Source: Segatella buccae ATCC 33574
GTDB lineage: Bacteria > Bacteroidota > Bacteroidia > Bacteroidales > Bacteroidaceae
Length of the DNA: 64,000 bases
Assembly: GCF_000184945.1 (NCBI RefSeq)
Contig: NZ_GL586311.1
Span: 802,731 to 866,730 of the forward strand
Reading direction: 5' to 3'
In this document: piece after piece, positions 51,138-54,993 of the stretch
Layout: every line of letters begins with the position of its first letter
Numbering within the stretch: position 1 is the stretch's first letter
Notes under the pieces: model-generated
Told to the model about the DNA's origin: nothing
The model's database searches: none
Seen by the model: only the letters and a program-made list of their open reading frames with translations
Translations under genes and position numbers: made by a program

Positions 51138-52727
51138 ATGGAAAATAAAATGCAACACTATCTCCCCGAGATAGAACAGGAGAAGATGAAAAGGCTTCAC
51201 GACATCGAAGACCGGTATCACGCAGGAGACCTCACGCTCGAAGAGGCCCGTCGGGAACTGGCCGAAAAGGTGGGAAAGGTGAACCCCTACCACATTGCCT
51301 ATGTCGAGCAGACCATGACCGAGGAAAGTGACGACGAGTGTATCAGGGAAGACATCCACCAGACGCTCCATCTGCTCGACGGACTGATGGACACTTCGCT
51401 GCCCAACCTGCCGGAGACTCACCCCATCATGCACTATCTGCGGGAGAATGAGGAGATGCGCCGGCTGCTCTTGGCCGTGGAAGACCTGATGCAGTATCCC
51501 ATGATCAAGAATCAGTGGCTGGAGCTCTACGACCGTATCAAACTTTACCCCATACACTACAAGCGCAAGCAAAACCAGCTCTATCCTGTGCTCGAGAAGA
51601 AGGGGTTTACACGGCCTACGACCACTATGTGGACTTTCGACGACCTCGTGCGCGACATCATCAGAGACTCCGAGCGCCTGCTCGGAGAGATGCGCGAGGA
51701 AGAGTTCATCGCCAAGCAGCAAGAACTGCTCGACTACTGCCGCGACCTCATGCACAAGGAGGAGGCCATTCTCTATCCCACTTCGATGGCCATGATCAGC
51801 CCTAAGGAGTTTGAGGAGATGAAGGAGGGCGACCGGGAGATAGGTTTCGCTTTCTTCGATGTGGCTCCTGAGGAGACTGCCCACACTGCCGAAAAGGCCC
51901 CGGAAGCGGTTCCCGCAGGCTTTGCGGCCGATTTGCAGGCCTTGTTGGGCAAATACGGCTACACTTCCGGAGGCAGCGACAAGCTCGATGTGACCACCGG
52001 CCGGCTCACCCTCGAACAGATCAACCTCATCTACAAGCATCTGCCCATCGATATCTCGTTTGTCGACGAAAACGAACTCGTGTGCTTCTATTCCGATACT
52101 GACCACCGCATCTTTCCGCGCAGCAAAAACGTGATAGGCCGCGAGGTGATGAACTGCCACCCCAAGAAGAGTGCCCACGTGGTGCGTGAAGTGATTGACA
52201 AGCTGCGCAGCGGCGAGCAAGACAGGGCAGAGTTTTGGATCAACAAGCCCGGCCTGTTCATCTACATTGTCTATGTGGCCGTGCGCGACAAAGACGGCAA
52301 GTTCCGCGGTGTGCTTGAGATGATGCAAGACTGCACACATATCCGCGCCCTCGAAGGTTCACAGACGCTGCTCACGTGGGCTGGCGAAAATGTCTCCGAC
52401 AAGGCTTCCGCCGCCCCCGAAGCAAAGGGAAGCGGGCCCGGCAGCTCTACTCCTACCGCTCCCGAAGCCGAAGCGGAGAGTCCGTCCGACTCCTCTCCCG
52501 CGCCATCCGTCACCGCCATCACGCCCGAAACGCGCCTGAAAGACCTCCTGAAGCAATATCCCGACCTCAAAAAGCGGCTTCCGGAGATAGCCCCGGAGTT
52601 TAAGATGCTCAGTTCACCGCTCGGGAAAATCATCGCTGCCAAGGCCGATGTGCGGATGATGAGCGAGCGCTCGGGCGTGGAACTCAACTCCCTCATCGGG
52701 CAGCTCAAGCGGCTCATCGGGGGGTAA
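51138..52727 (+). CDS. DUF438, hemerythrin, PAS and DUF1858 multidomain protein
   Basis: 529 residues from the ATG at 51138. Domains in order: DUF438 (about 20-85, LEEARRELAEKVGKVNPYHI), hemerythrin-like HHE domain (about 90-225, His in THPIMHYLREN, LYPIHYKRKQNQLYP and LMHKEEAILYP that can bind a di-iron site), PAS-like domain (about 270-405, VDENELVCFYSDTDHRIFPRS), a Ser/Pro/Ala-rich linker (about 415-465) and a C-terminal DUF1858 (about 470-529, TRLKDLLKQYPDLKKRLPEI). Proteins with this set are thought to sense or handle oxygen or nitric oxide in anaerobes; the DUF1858 end is shared with iron-sulfur repair proteins. No output domain is seen. Confidence 0.9.
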   Translation: MENKMQHYLPEIEQEKMKRLHDIEDRYHAGDLTLEEARRELAEKVGKVNPYHIAYVEQTMTEESDDECIREDIHQTLHLLDGLMDTSLPNLPETHPIMHYLRENEEMRRLLLAVEDLMQYPMIKNQWLELYDRIKLYPIHYKRKQNQLYPVLEKKGFTRPTTTMWTFDDLVRDIIRDSERLLGEMREEEFIAKQQELLDYCRDLMHKEEAILYPTSMAMISPKEFEEMKEGDREIGFAFFDVAPEETAHTAEKAPEAVPAGFAADLQALLGKYGYTSGGSDKLDVTTGRLTLEQINLIYKHLPIDISFVDENELVCFYSDTDHRIFPRSKNVIGREVMNCHPKKSAHVVREVIDKLRSGEQDRAEFWINKPGLFIYIVYVAVRDKDGKFRGVLEMMQDCTHIRALEGSQTLLTWAGENVSDKASAAPEAKGSGPGSSTPTAPEAEAESPSDSSPAPSVTAITPETRLKDLLKQYPDLKKRLPEIAPEFKMLSSPLGKIIAAKADVRMMSERSGVELNSLIGQLKRLIGG

Positions 52728-52797: not shown

Positions 52798-52938
52798 CCC
52801 AACGGCCCATGCCGTTTTTTCTTCCGGCTTACCTTCGTATGTTTTCAGTCATGCACGGTTATGATGGGTGTTTTTACTGATAAACGATGGAATATTATTG
52901 GAAAATTTCGTAATTTTGTCATCAAACAACGAATTTGA

Positions 52939-53775
52939 ATGCCACCCATGCTCCAAATACTCCAACGAAAATATCCATTTAAGCCGGGCAATTGGAAAGA
53001 TAGTCTGCTGCTTTCAGCCATCGTCTTCCTGATTCTTTATTTCCTTGTTCCCTTTGGCCTCAATATCTATGAGCAGAATGGAGGAAATCTGTTGGGAGTT
53101 GTTCTTGGATATAGTCTTATCACCTATATCAGTCAGGCTGCCTATCAGAAATGTGTCAGCCGCTTGGCTGCCAGAAAAAGCATCTGGACAATAGCCGACG
53201 CAGGCCTTTCCTGCATCCTGTTTTGGCTTTTTCTGGGCCTGTGCAATGCCATCTATTCCATCGTCGTCTTTCATATCGGGGCCCAGTATTTTGCCAAAGT
53301 GATTCTCGTTTTCCTTTATTGGACATTCATTATCGGCATCATTTTGGGCATCGTGACCTTTCTCGTCAATTACAATCGTTATCTGAAGACGGAGCTGGCA
53401 GGGATGCTACAGAAAAACACGGAGGAGCAGGAAGACATCATTGTGACGATACACGACACGGCAGCGAGAGGCTCCGACCTCCGGATAGGGCTCAATGAAT
53501 TTCTCTATGCCGAGTCGCAGAAAAATGATGTGACCATTTACTATAAGCAAGGCAGAGAATTGCTTCATAGGACGATGAGACTGACGATGGCAGCCCTATT
53601 GTCAGATTTGGACTATCACAACATCTTCCAATGCCACCGCTCGTTTGTCGTTAACATCAATAACATTTCCGATGCCAAGGGTAATTCGAATGGTTATCAA
53701 CTGAAATTGTCCGACTGTCCGGCGGCAGTTCCAGTCTCCCGTACTTATGTCCCTAAGTTGAAATCGTATTTATAG
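52939..53775 (+). CDS. Membrane-anchored LytTR-family transcription regulator
   Basis: 278 residues. Four hydrophobic segments lie within residues 22-155 (for example SAIVFLILYFLVPFGLNIY and VILVFLYWTFIIGIILGIVTF). A short linker leads to a LytTR DNA-binding domain at about 180-278, with EFLYAESQKNDVTIYY, MAALLSDLDYHNIFQCHRSFVVNINNISD and PVSRTYVPKL, the family signature. The protein would bind DNA while fixed in the membrane, with no separate response-regulator receiver. It lies 138 bp before an EreA/ChaN-like gene whose promoter is preceded by two long direct repeats, the likely binding sites. Confidence 0.92.
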   Translation: MPPMLQILQRKYPFKPGNWKDSLLLSAIVFLILYFLVPFGLNIYEQNGGNLLGVVLGYSLITYISQAAYQKCVSRLAARKSIWTIADAGLSCILFWLFLGLCNAIYSIVVFHIGAQYFAKVILVFLYWTFIIGIILGIVTFLVNYNRYLKTELAGMLQKNTEEQEDIIVTIHDTAARGSDLRIGLNEFLYAESQKNDVTIYYKQGRELLHRTMRLTMAALLSDLDYHNIFQCHRSFVVNINNISDAKGNSNGYQLKLSDCPAAVPVSRTYVPKLKSYL

Positions 53776-53780
53776 GCATA

Positions 53781-53849
53781 GTCATCCGTCACAAAACTTA
53801 GTCAAATGGCCATTGCGATAGCCGTCTGTCACTTTTCTTAGTTGTATGG
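53781..53849 (+). promoter_or_regulatory. Two 40-bp-offset direct repeats, likely LytTR operator
   Basis: Unit 1 (53781-53809) and unit 2 (53821-53849) share GTCAC, four variable bases, CTTAGT and a terminal ATGG. They lie 9 bp upstream of the -33 box at 53859. Offset is exactly 40 bp, close to four helical turns, so two regulator dimers would bind one face of the DNA. LytTR regulators are known to bind paired direct repeats upstream of promoters. Confidence 0.7.
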
Positions 53850-53858
53850 ATTGAGTAT

Positions 53859-53889
53859 TTGGGTGGTTTGAATTTCCTTTTTATTTTTG
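53859..53889 (+). promoter_or_regulatory. Promoter of the EreA/ChaN-like gene
   Basis: TTGG (53859-53862), exactly 19 bp, TATTTTTG (53882-53889). The predicted start is near 53895, so the ATG at 53914 is the proper start; an open frame beginning at 53887 starts inside the -7 box. Confidence 0.75.
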
Positions 53890-53913
53890 CATCAGAAATC
53901 AAAACATCTGAAT

Positions 53914-54993
53914 ATGGTAAAAATTATAAGAATCGCAGTTATCGTATTTATTATTCTGGCTATGCTCCCACTGCTTTACATCTGGGGTGTCTGGCTCTAC
54001 TATTCGGGCAGTAAGTCGACTGAAAAAATCGAATATCTACGGAGAAACAGCACTGCCCTTAATGGCAGACTGGAGATTCCGCAGAATTTTATCGAGGCTC
54101 CCGATACATCGAAAACAACAATCTATATGTTTGGAGAGATTCACGGATATGCCAAGACCGAAGATTTTGCCATATCCATGTTGGAGTATCTGAATCGCAA
54201 CTATGGCGTGAGAGACTATTTCACCGAGATATATACAGAAGAAGCCGAACTGCTTAATCGCTTCCTCGACGCTCCCAGTCAGAATAGGGGCTTGTTGGGG
54301 AAACTTTTGCAATATGAAAAAGAAAATATTCCGCAGCACCATACCGAAGATTTCATCCGTAAGTGGGAACGGCTGTATAACTTCAATAGCAGTCTCGATT
54401 CAGCCCACCGAATTATCGTACATTCCCTCCTTGGCAGACAGAAAGACTATAAAGGAATGCGCGACTCTGCAATGTTGGCCAACTTCATGGCTTGTATGAA
54501 AGGCATAAAAGGTAGGGTGGTTTACTGTTCCACAGGGGTGGGGCATATCTACCGTTCCCCTTATGTGGTCAAGGGGCATCATGTTGCGTCTTTGGGCACT
54601 TGTCTGGAGCGGAAGCCCTCCAACAAGGTGGTCAGCATAGCCCACATCACGCTCGACAGCGAGTGTTATCTCCCGAAAGAGTCTCCCTTTCCTACTCCGA
54701 GAGACGAAAAAACAAAACTGGCCAATGCCGACGGGCCATTGTTATATTTCACGAATGTGGAAAACTTGAGAGAGGCATCGCCCGAGAGGGGCGTCTGCTT
54801 ATACCGGCTGAACGTAAAAGGCTCTCCCTACAAAGATGGCGATGATTTTGTGGGATATAAGTCACCTGTAGCATTTATGGTGGGAGAGATGACTGCGGAA
54901 AAGGGAAAGTCGACTATCGATTATTTTCAGTATTTGTTGCTGACCAGAGGCTATGACGCGCCCACGATACTGAAGTGGGAACCATGTTTTTGA
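53914..54993 (+). CDS. Membrane-anchored EreA/ChaN/TIKI-superfamily-like protein
   Basis: 359 residues from the ATG at 53914. One N-terminal membrane anchor (about 5-30) precedes a domain with three features of the erythromycin esterase/ChaN/TraB-TIKI superfamily: TIYMFGEIHG near residue 72 (Glu-x-His), acidic residues in YFTEIYTEEAELLN near 107, RDSAMLANFMACMK near 190, and GVGHIYRSPY near 212 (second His). These residues form the active site in enzymes of the superfamily. Whether it is a hydrolase, a haem protein or a sensor cannot be said. The LytTR regulator directly upstream and the operator-like repeats indicate that its expression is controlled by that regulator. Confidence 0.65.
   Translation: MVKIIRIAVIVFIILAMLPLLYIWGVWLYYSGSKSTEKIEYLRRNSTALNGRLEIPQNFIEAPDTSKTTIYMFGEIHGYAKTEDFAISMLEYLNRNYGVRDYFTEIYTEEAELLNRFLDAPSQNRGLLGKLLQYEKENIPQHHTEDFIRKWERLYNFNSSLDSAHRIIVHSLLGRQKDYKGMRDSAMLANFMACMKGIKGRVVYCSTGVGHIYRSPYVVKGHHVASLGTCLERKPSNKVVSIAHITLDSECYLPKESPFPTPRDEKTKLANADGPLLYFTNVENLREASPERGVCLYRLNVKGSPYKDGDDFVGYKSPVAFMVGEMTAEKGKSTIDYFQYLLLTRGYDAPTILKWEPCF

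Follow-up and report, generated by a model that had tools for sequence, protein, structure and literature searches.

In the window (the whole 64,000-nucleotide stretch of DNA analysed here), the gene for a membrane LytTR regulator (positions 52939-53775) is followed by an array of four 20-bp units (53779-53857), which ends at the promoter of a second gene, the target (53914-54993). As judged from comparison of the sequences with those of related genomes, the regulator and its putative operator are a conserved cassette with interchangeable cargo, and the pairing of this regulator with this target is private to this genome. We consider it likely that the regulator is a membrane one-component activator of a probably periplasmic hydrolase, with the array bound by the LytTR domain, and that the hydrolase gene has replaced an ancestral cargo.

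Overall organization of the locus

The genome, of 3.28 Mb, belongs among Prevotella-like Bacteroidales, as judged from its relatives in named collections and from its TAnnTTTG promoters. The two genes, and the operator and promoter features described below for them, are located on the + strand. The genes lie between that of a PAS/hemerythrin/DUF1858 protein and mutS, and are separated from each other by a gap of 138 bp. The hemerythrin, PAS and DUF1858 protein directly upstream (51138-52727) is conserved in the genus. In none of 19 other genomes examined is the PAS/hemerythrin gene followed by mutS within 1.5 kb. The GC content of the regulator and target genes is 45.6-46.2%, compared to 51.8% for the window. 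The entire segment 52939-55543, which comprises the regulator, the target and the next intergenic stretch, has a GC content of 45-46% against the window mean of 51.8%, and this lower value is compatible with acquisition.

The regulator

The regulator contains 278 residues. Its C-terminal region (residues 183-278, 53485-53772) is a LytTR DNA-binding domain, based on a match to Pfam PF04397 (E value of 1.8e-16, 60.6 bits, cut-off 22.6) and on comparison with relatives. Hydropathy analysis places four transmembrane (TM) segments in the same chain, at residues of about 23-41, 51-69, 93-111 and 121-139. No receiver, kinase or other domain is found above the cut-off in Pfam or NCBIfam, and no kinase gene adjoins the regulator gene. 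An earlier note on this DNA had described a regulator in which a LytTR domain is joined to four membrane segments, with no histidine kinase or receiver present, and this description is borne out. The TM domain has no match in Pfam, and the MHYT domain (PF03707) is absent at E ≤ 1. Assignment of the regulator as a membrane one-component LytTR protein is supported by these predicted features.

With a cut-off of E ≤ 1e-30, a relative of the regulator is present in 77 of the 398 genomes of the genus, that of the window counted in. Nearly all of these relatives are full length, and most share 38-50% identity with the window's regulator. Further genera of the family also hold relatives, with identities down to 27-31%. 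The mean identity to the relatives is 54% for the LytTR half and 33% for the TM half. Nearly all of the positions that are conserved in 95% of the relatives are kept in the LytTR regulator of the window. In a tree of 76 same-genus regulators, this protein forms a long, poorly placed branch, and its specificity may therefore have drifted.

A four-unit array at the target promoter

The array begins 3 bp past the stop codon of the regulator, and its units start at 53779, 53799, 53819 and 53839. Unit 1 (53779-53798), TAGTCATCCGTC plus 8 bp, has the best unit-matrix score in the window, and unit 3 (53819-53838), TAGCCGTCTGTC plus 8 bp, has the third best. Unit 2 (53799-53818), TAGTCAAATGGC plus 8 bp, is degenerate. 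Unit 4 (53839-53857), TAGTTGTATGGA plus 7 bp, is also degenerate, and it abuts the -33 box. As units 2 and 4 are degenerate, affinity may be reduced. At a spacing of 20 bp, neighboring sites would be separated by two helical turns, and all four would face the same side of the DNA.

The last unit starts 19 bp 5' of the -33 box TTTG (53858-53861), giving a spacing of 20-20-20-19. The -7 box, TATTTTTG (53882-53889), is of the TAnnTTTG type and is located 24 bp 5' of the target ATG. The promoter with proper spacing that the earlier note had placed before the target is present in this arrangement, TTTG-N20-TATTTTTG, and its geometry is the same as in the relatives.

The earlier note had also described two 29-bp direct repeats, at 53781 and 53821. 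They are only 19/29 identical, and a repeat search of the window did not list them; what stands is that they correspond to alternate units of the 20-bp array. Matches with a 40-bp offset that are as good as this pair or better occur at 18 of 63,932 window positions, and a 20-bp periodicity equal to that of the array at 166 of 63,921. In the window alone, the array is unremarkable. It exceeds chance because a matrix made from the relatives only is able to find it.

In most relatives, four copies of the consensus unit, TAGTCATTCGTC, come directly after the regulator at exact 20-bp steps, and in most of them unit 1 begins with the regulator stop codon TAG. The last unit starts 19 bp 5' of TTTGG, with N20 and TAnnTTTG coming next. 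The array is located at the same position in about 60 same-genus relatives, 55 of which have the identical 20-20-20-19 spacing. After removal of near copies, 48 of these 55 exact-spacing relatives were used for the operator matrix, and the window was left out. In a scan of both strands of the 64-kb window, this matrix gives a score of +23.7 to the array at 53779. The next best score is -29.0, for an overlapping register, and the best elsewhere on either strand is -34.3. The genome-wide search was carried out with an exact two-unit pattern, which has only two matches in the 3.28-Mb genome, both inside the array. With four 20-bp direct repeats at the target promoter, and with the array kept in 55 relatives, the proposal of a putative operator behind the regulator, positioned to control the next gene, is supported.

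A candidate -7 box for the promoter of the regulator itself, TAATTTTG, is found at 52911-52918, with no convincing -33 box 5' of it and no operator units upstream. The operator matrix detects nothing upstream of the window regulator (score of -88) or of 80 relatives. Autoregulation was considered and rejected, as no array of the operator type is located upstream of these regulators and nothing here points to it.

There are variations in this region among the relatives. The ATG of the TonB-like gene that usually follows the array (see below) is located about 4 nt past the -7 box, TATCTTTGCAGCATG, in loci L024-L032 and others (for example L024:4857-4973). The mRNA may be leaderless in these cases; the corresponding distance for the window target is 24 bp. 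In locus L034, a small antitoxin-like HTH module is located between regulator and operator, with a gap of 847 bp, and in L127 a gene similar to this module comes after the regulator.

Comparison with known LytTR systems and a model for regulation

Membrane LytTR regulators such as CoxC are already known, and examples from Bacteroides, in which the repeats are paired and precede the operon of the regulator itself, have been described as LRS-like (PMC6193735). CoxC of Afipia carboxidovorans is an MHYT-LytTR membrane regulator, a repressor that is released by CO. Its operator, which overlaps the -35 box, has three direct repeats at intervals of 18-21 bp (PMC11347149). Both CoxC and RcoM bind three direct repeats two helical turns apart (PMC11347149). 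As in CoxC, the window regulator would combine an N-terminal TM sensor and a C-terminal LytTR domain in one protein, and the target promoter has direct repeats at intervals of two helical turns. There are clear differences, however. CoxC has a seven-helix MHYT domain and three repeats over the -35 box. In comparison, the window regulator has four helices and no PF03707 match, which places it outside the CoxC type, and its four repeats are upstream of the -33 box. CoxC represses, whereas the position of the window array suggests activation.

The LytTR regulatory systems (LRS), including the LRS-like operons of Bacteroides, resemble the window in having LytTR and membrane components, with direct repeats just upstream of a promoter, and the Bacteroides examples also have TM-LytTR regulators (PMC6193735). 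On the other hand, LRS have pairs of repeats in front of the operon of the regulator itself, for autoregulation, and a separate membrane protein (PMC6193735). The window has a four-unit array behind the regulator and before another gene. No partner gene for a membrane inhibitor is present, the neighbors being the PAS/hemerythrin protein, the target and mutS, and neither the window regulator nor the 80 relatives have the repeats upstream of their own promoters.

Most LytTR activators bind upstream of the -35 box (PMC11347149, PMC6193735), and those of LRS bind just upstream of it (PMC6193735). The array fits this activator position as well as the repeat spacing of CoxC and RcoM, and from this we infer an activator, bound to the membrane, which would assemble on the array once its four-helix domain is triggered. 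The four-helix inner-membrane domain would sense a signal in or across the membrane. Sensing would alter how the cytoplasmic LytTR domains, probably in a multimer, bind the four sites with their 20-bp spacing. As the array reaches up to the -33 box, the bound regulator would most likely activate transcription by contacting RNA polymerase. The core motifs of the array stop 7 bp upstream of this box.

The main rival to this model is repression, in which the unliganded regulator would shut the promoter through the array and be released by the signal, in the way that CO releases CoxC. CoxC is the nearest characterised membrane LytTR regulator, and it represses through three direct repeats (PMC11347149). 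However, the operator of CoxC overlaps the -35 box. The window array, in contrast, ends just before the -33 box, in the typical position for an activator (PMC6193735, PMC11347149). We therefore regard repression as unlikely.

The target protein has an Ere/TIKI-type fold

The target contains 359 residues. A basic start, MVKIIR, is followed by an N-terminal signal anchor (residues 4-22, 53923-53979), the single TM segment found by hydropathy. With this basic N-terminus and single TM segment, the catalytic domain is predicted to be periplasmic by the positive-inside rule. The membrane anchor and the Glu-x-His and Gly-x-x-His motifs that the earlier note had recognized are all present, the motifs as G74-E-I-H77 and G208-V-G-H211.

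No match to the target is found in Pfam or NCBIfam, and the erythromycin-esterase models are absent at E ≤ 1. The ChaN family (PF04187) does not match the target itself, and it gives only weak matches, short of the gathering score, to 7 of 29 homologs (best E value of 2.9e-4). A sequence search of solved structures gives a weak match to 2qgm (E value of 0.2), after which the fold was settled by structure comparison. The AlphaFold model, produced with 28 of 46 homologs, has a mean pLDDT of 90.9. Foldseek aligns it with 3b55 at an E value of 4e-10. The VIA-align Z scores are 22.6-24.2, over 270-291 residues, for Bcr135 (2qgm, 3b55 and 2rad) and EreC, with individual values of 24.2 for 2qgm and 23.1 for EreC (6xcs). 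The scores are 11.2 for ChaN (2g5g) and 9.1 for the RRSP domain. Based on this predicted model, the target shares the fold of the TIKI/ChaN/Ere superfamily, in agreement with the fold group proposed before.

Four residues of the target, Glu75 and His77 of the Glu-x-His motif (54136-54144), Glu105 (54226-54228) and His211 of the Gly-x-x-His motif (54544-54546), are invariant in 29 of 29 homologs. They were assigned as a 2His/2Glu set, with His211 as the second His, by motif and spacing rather than by residue-level superposition. The equivalent set of VvRRSP (Glu-3900-x-His-3902, Glu-3930 and His-4030) is needed according to mutagenesis, and the counterparts in Bcr135 include His-85 and Glu-113 (PMC6254334). 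Glu105 is located 28 residues past His77, the same spacing as between His-3902 and Glu-3930 of VvRRSP and between His-85 and Glu-113 of Bcr135.

The target is similar to Bcr135 (3B55, 2QGM) and EreC in the fold of the whole domain and in the Glu/His/Glu/His set. In contrast, it shares only 10-14% identity with them, and has an RRSP-type Glu-x-His motif, a signal anchor and no family match. The model suggests that the target is probably a membrane-anchored periplasmic hydrolase of the Ere/TIKI type, for which macrolides would be only one possible class of substrate. The 46 homologs in named genomes, with 28-41% identity, are mostly from Flavobacterium, Chryseobacterium, Empedobacter and Sphingobacterium, with a few from Prevotella and one from Capnocytophaga.

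The cargo of the regulator is exchanged

The usual neighbor of the regulator is a different one. A TonB-like/TPR operon adjoins 61 of the 76 same-genus regulators in the tree. Its first gene, which starts after a gap of 112 bp in most relatives, encodes a protein of about 684 residues, in which a CarboxypepD_reg-like domain and a weak match to the TonB plug are found. The second gene overlaps the first and encodes a protein of about 176 residues with weak TPR matches. This operon is absent from the genome of the window, where the best match to the 684-residue protein (E value of 1e-13) reflects generic similarity to TonB receptors.

The earlier note had taken regulator and target for a standing pair. 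This proposal fails the synteny check and was rejected: no LytTR open reading frame is located within the flanks examined, of up to 6 kb on either side, of any of the 46 target homologs in named genomes. Together with the 61 TonB-like/TPR partners, this indicates that it is the regulator with its operator that is conserved as a unit, and that the target is a replacement. The genes controlled ancestrally would be those of the TonB-receptor-like/TPR operon. In this genome, the single gene for the Ere/TIKI-type hydrolase would have replaced the operon, and would now be read from the same operator and promoter.

Other changes of cargo are observed. In L096 (G382:C147, 1463-2578), an intact four-unit array is followed by the gene of a TM-anchored hydrolase of the choloylglycine/C45 type (Pfam CBAH, E value of 6.7e-15). 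The same genome, G382, has a second regulator (C92) with no array. In one further genus (L205-L207 and L212), the next gene encodes an exported protein of 192 residues, after only two clear units, at a distance of about 21 bp, with a four-unit score that is not above shuffled controls. A distant membrane LytTR paralog with 24% identity (L054:4894-6343, genome G278) has its own four-unit 20-bp array, of the TTGCAGTTCATCC type, which precedes a DUF2141 gene. Regulators at 27-31% identity have TonB-like genes, in some cases together with a DUF2141-like gene, and visual inspection reveals ATTCGTCACA-like repeats; only some of these are above shuffled controls with the operator matrix.

The array of the window could also be a relic, left behind when the TonB/TPR operon was lost, and the hydrolase gene could have landed there by chance and be expressed independently of the regulator. 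No other genome was found to have the pair, two of the units are degenerate, both genes have a lower GC content than the window, and in several relatives no operon adjoins the regulator. However, the spacing from the array to the -33 box and on to the -7 box is exactly kept, and the LytTR domain retains nearly all of the family-invariant residues. Moreover, in genomes without the TonB-like/TPR operon, loss of the operon is mostly accompanied by loss or decay of the array, so retention of the array with a new gene suggests use. This second rival is given a low probability, and activation of the hydrolase gene through the array is the preferred reading.

Two-component counterparts

Genes for a His_kinase and a receiver-LytTR protein come after the TonB-like/TPR operon in other families of the order (L046-L049). 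These loci share the cargo and the LytTR output with the one-component systems, but have two proteins with phosphotransfer domains in place of one membrane LytTR protein. An array common to the TonB-like operons beside these pairs was considered and rejected, as no four-unit array of the operator type was found at L046-L049. A two-component pair stands beside the same operon where this lineage has a one-protein regulator, and it is possible that such a pair was replaced by a single membrane LytTR protein.

These pairs also lend some weight to a model in which the regulator is not the sensor and is driven by a separate kinase or membrane partner, as in LRS with a membrane inhibitor, but this is improbable as the regulator has no receiver domain to phosphorylate, no adjoining kinase gene and is itself embedded in the membrane. 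A remote link of its TM half to the TM halves of the L046-L049 kinases, such as would be expected if the regulator were a fusion of the kinase TM part with LytTR, is only hinted at (hhalign probability of 16%, P of 0.0016; 0.2% for Lgt, an unrelated control protein).

Implications

On balance, we lean towards a broader interpretation of the activator model, in which the regulator and array are a transplantable sensor-operator cassette. The fixed four-site array, carried between the stop codon and the next -7 box, would put whichever gene comes next under the control of the same membrane signal, and the cargo would have been exchanged several times within this family of Bacteroidales. The cargoes in this interpretation are the TonB-like/TPR operon, the Ere/TIKI hydrolase, the C45 hydrolase, the 192-residue exported protein and, with the paralogs, DUF2141. 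From their predicted features, the exchanged cargoes are all envelope or exported proteins. A four-site cassette behind its regulator, with exchanged cargo, was not found described in the openly available literature, and other papers could hold such a description.

The fold and the likely catalytic residues are now assigned for a membrane-anchored family of Bacteroidota that has no name in Pfam or NCBIfam. The cassette would represent a family-wide regulatory device with a precisely readable operator, in bacteria that are abundant in the gut and the rumen. The operator provides a handle on the regulon and on the membrane signal. The exchanged cargo amounts to a natural experiment, as the trait common to the outputs should tell what the sensor responds to.
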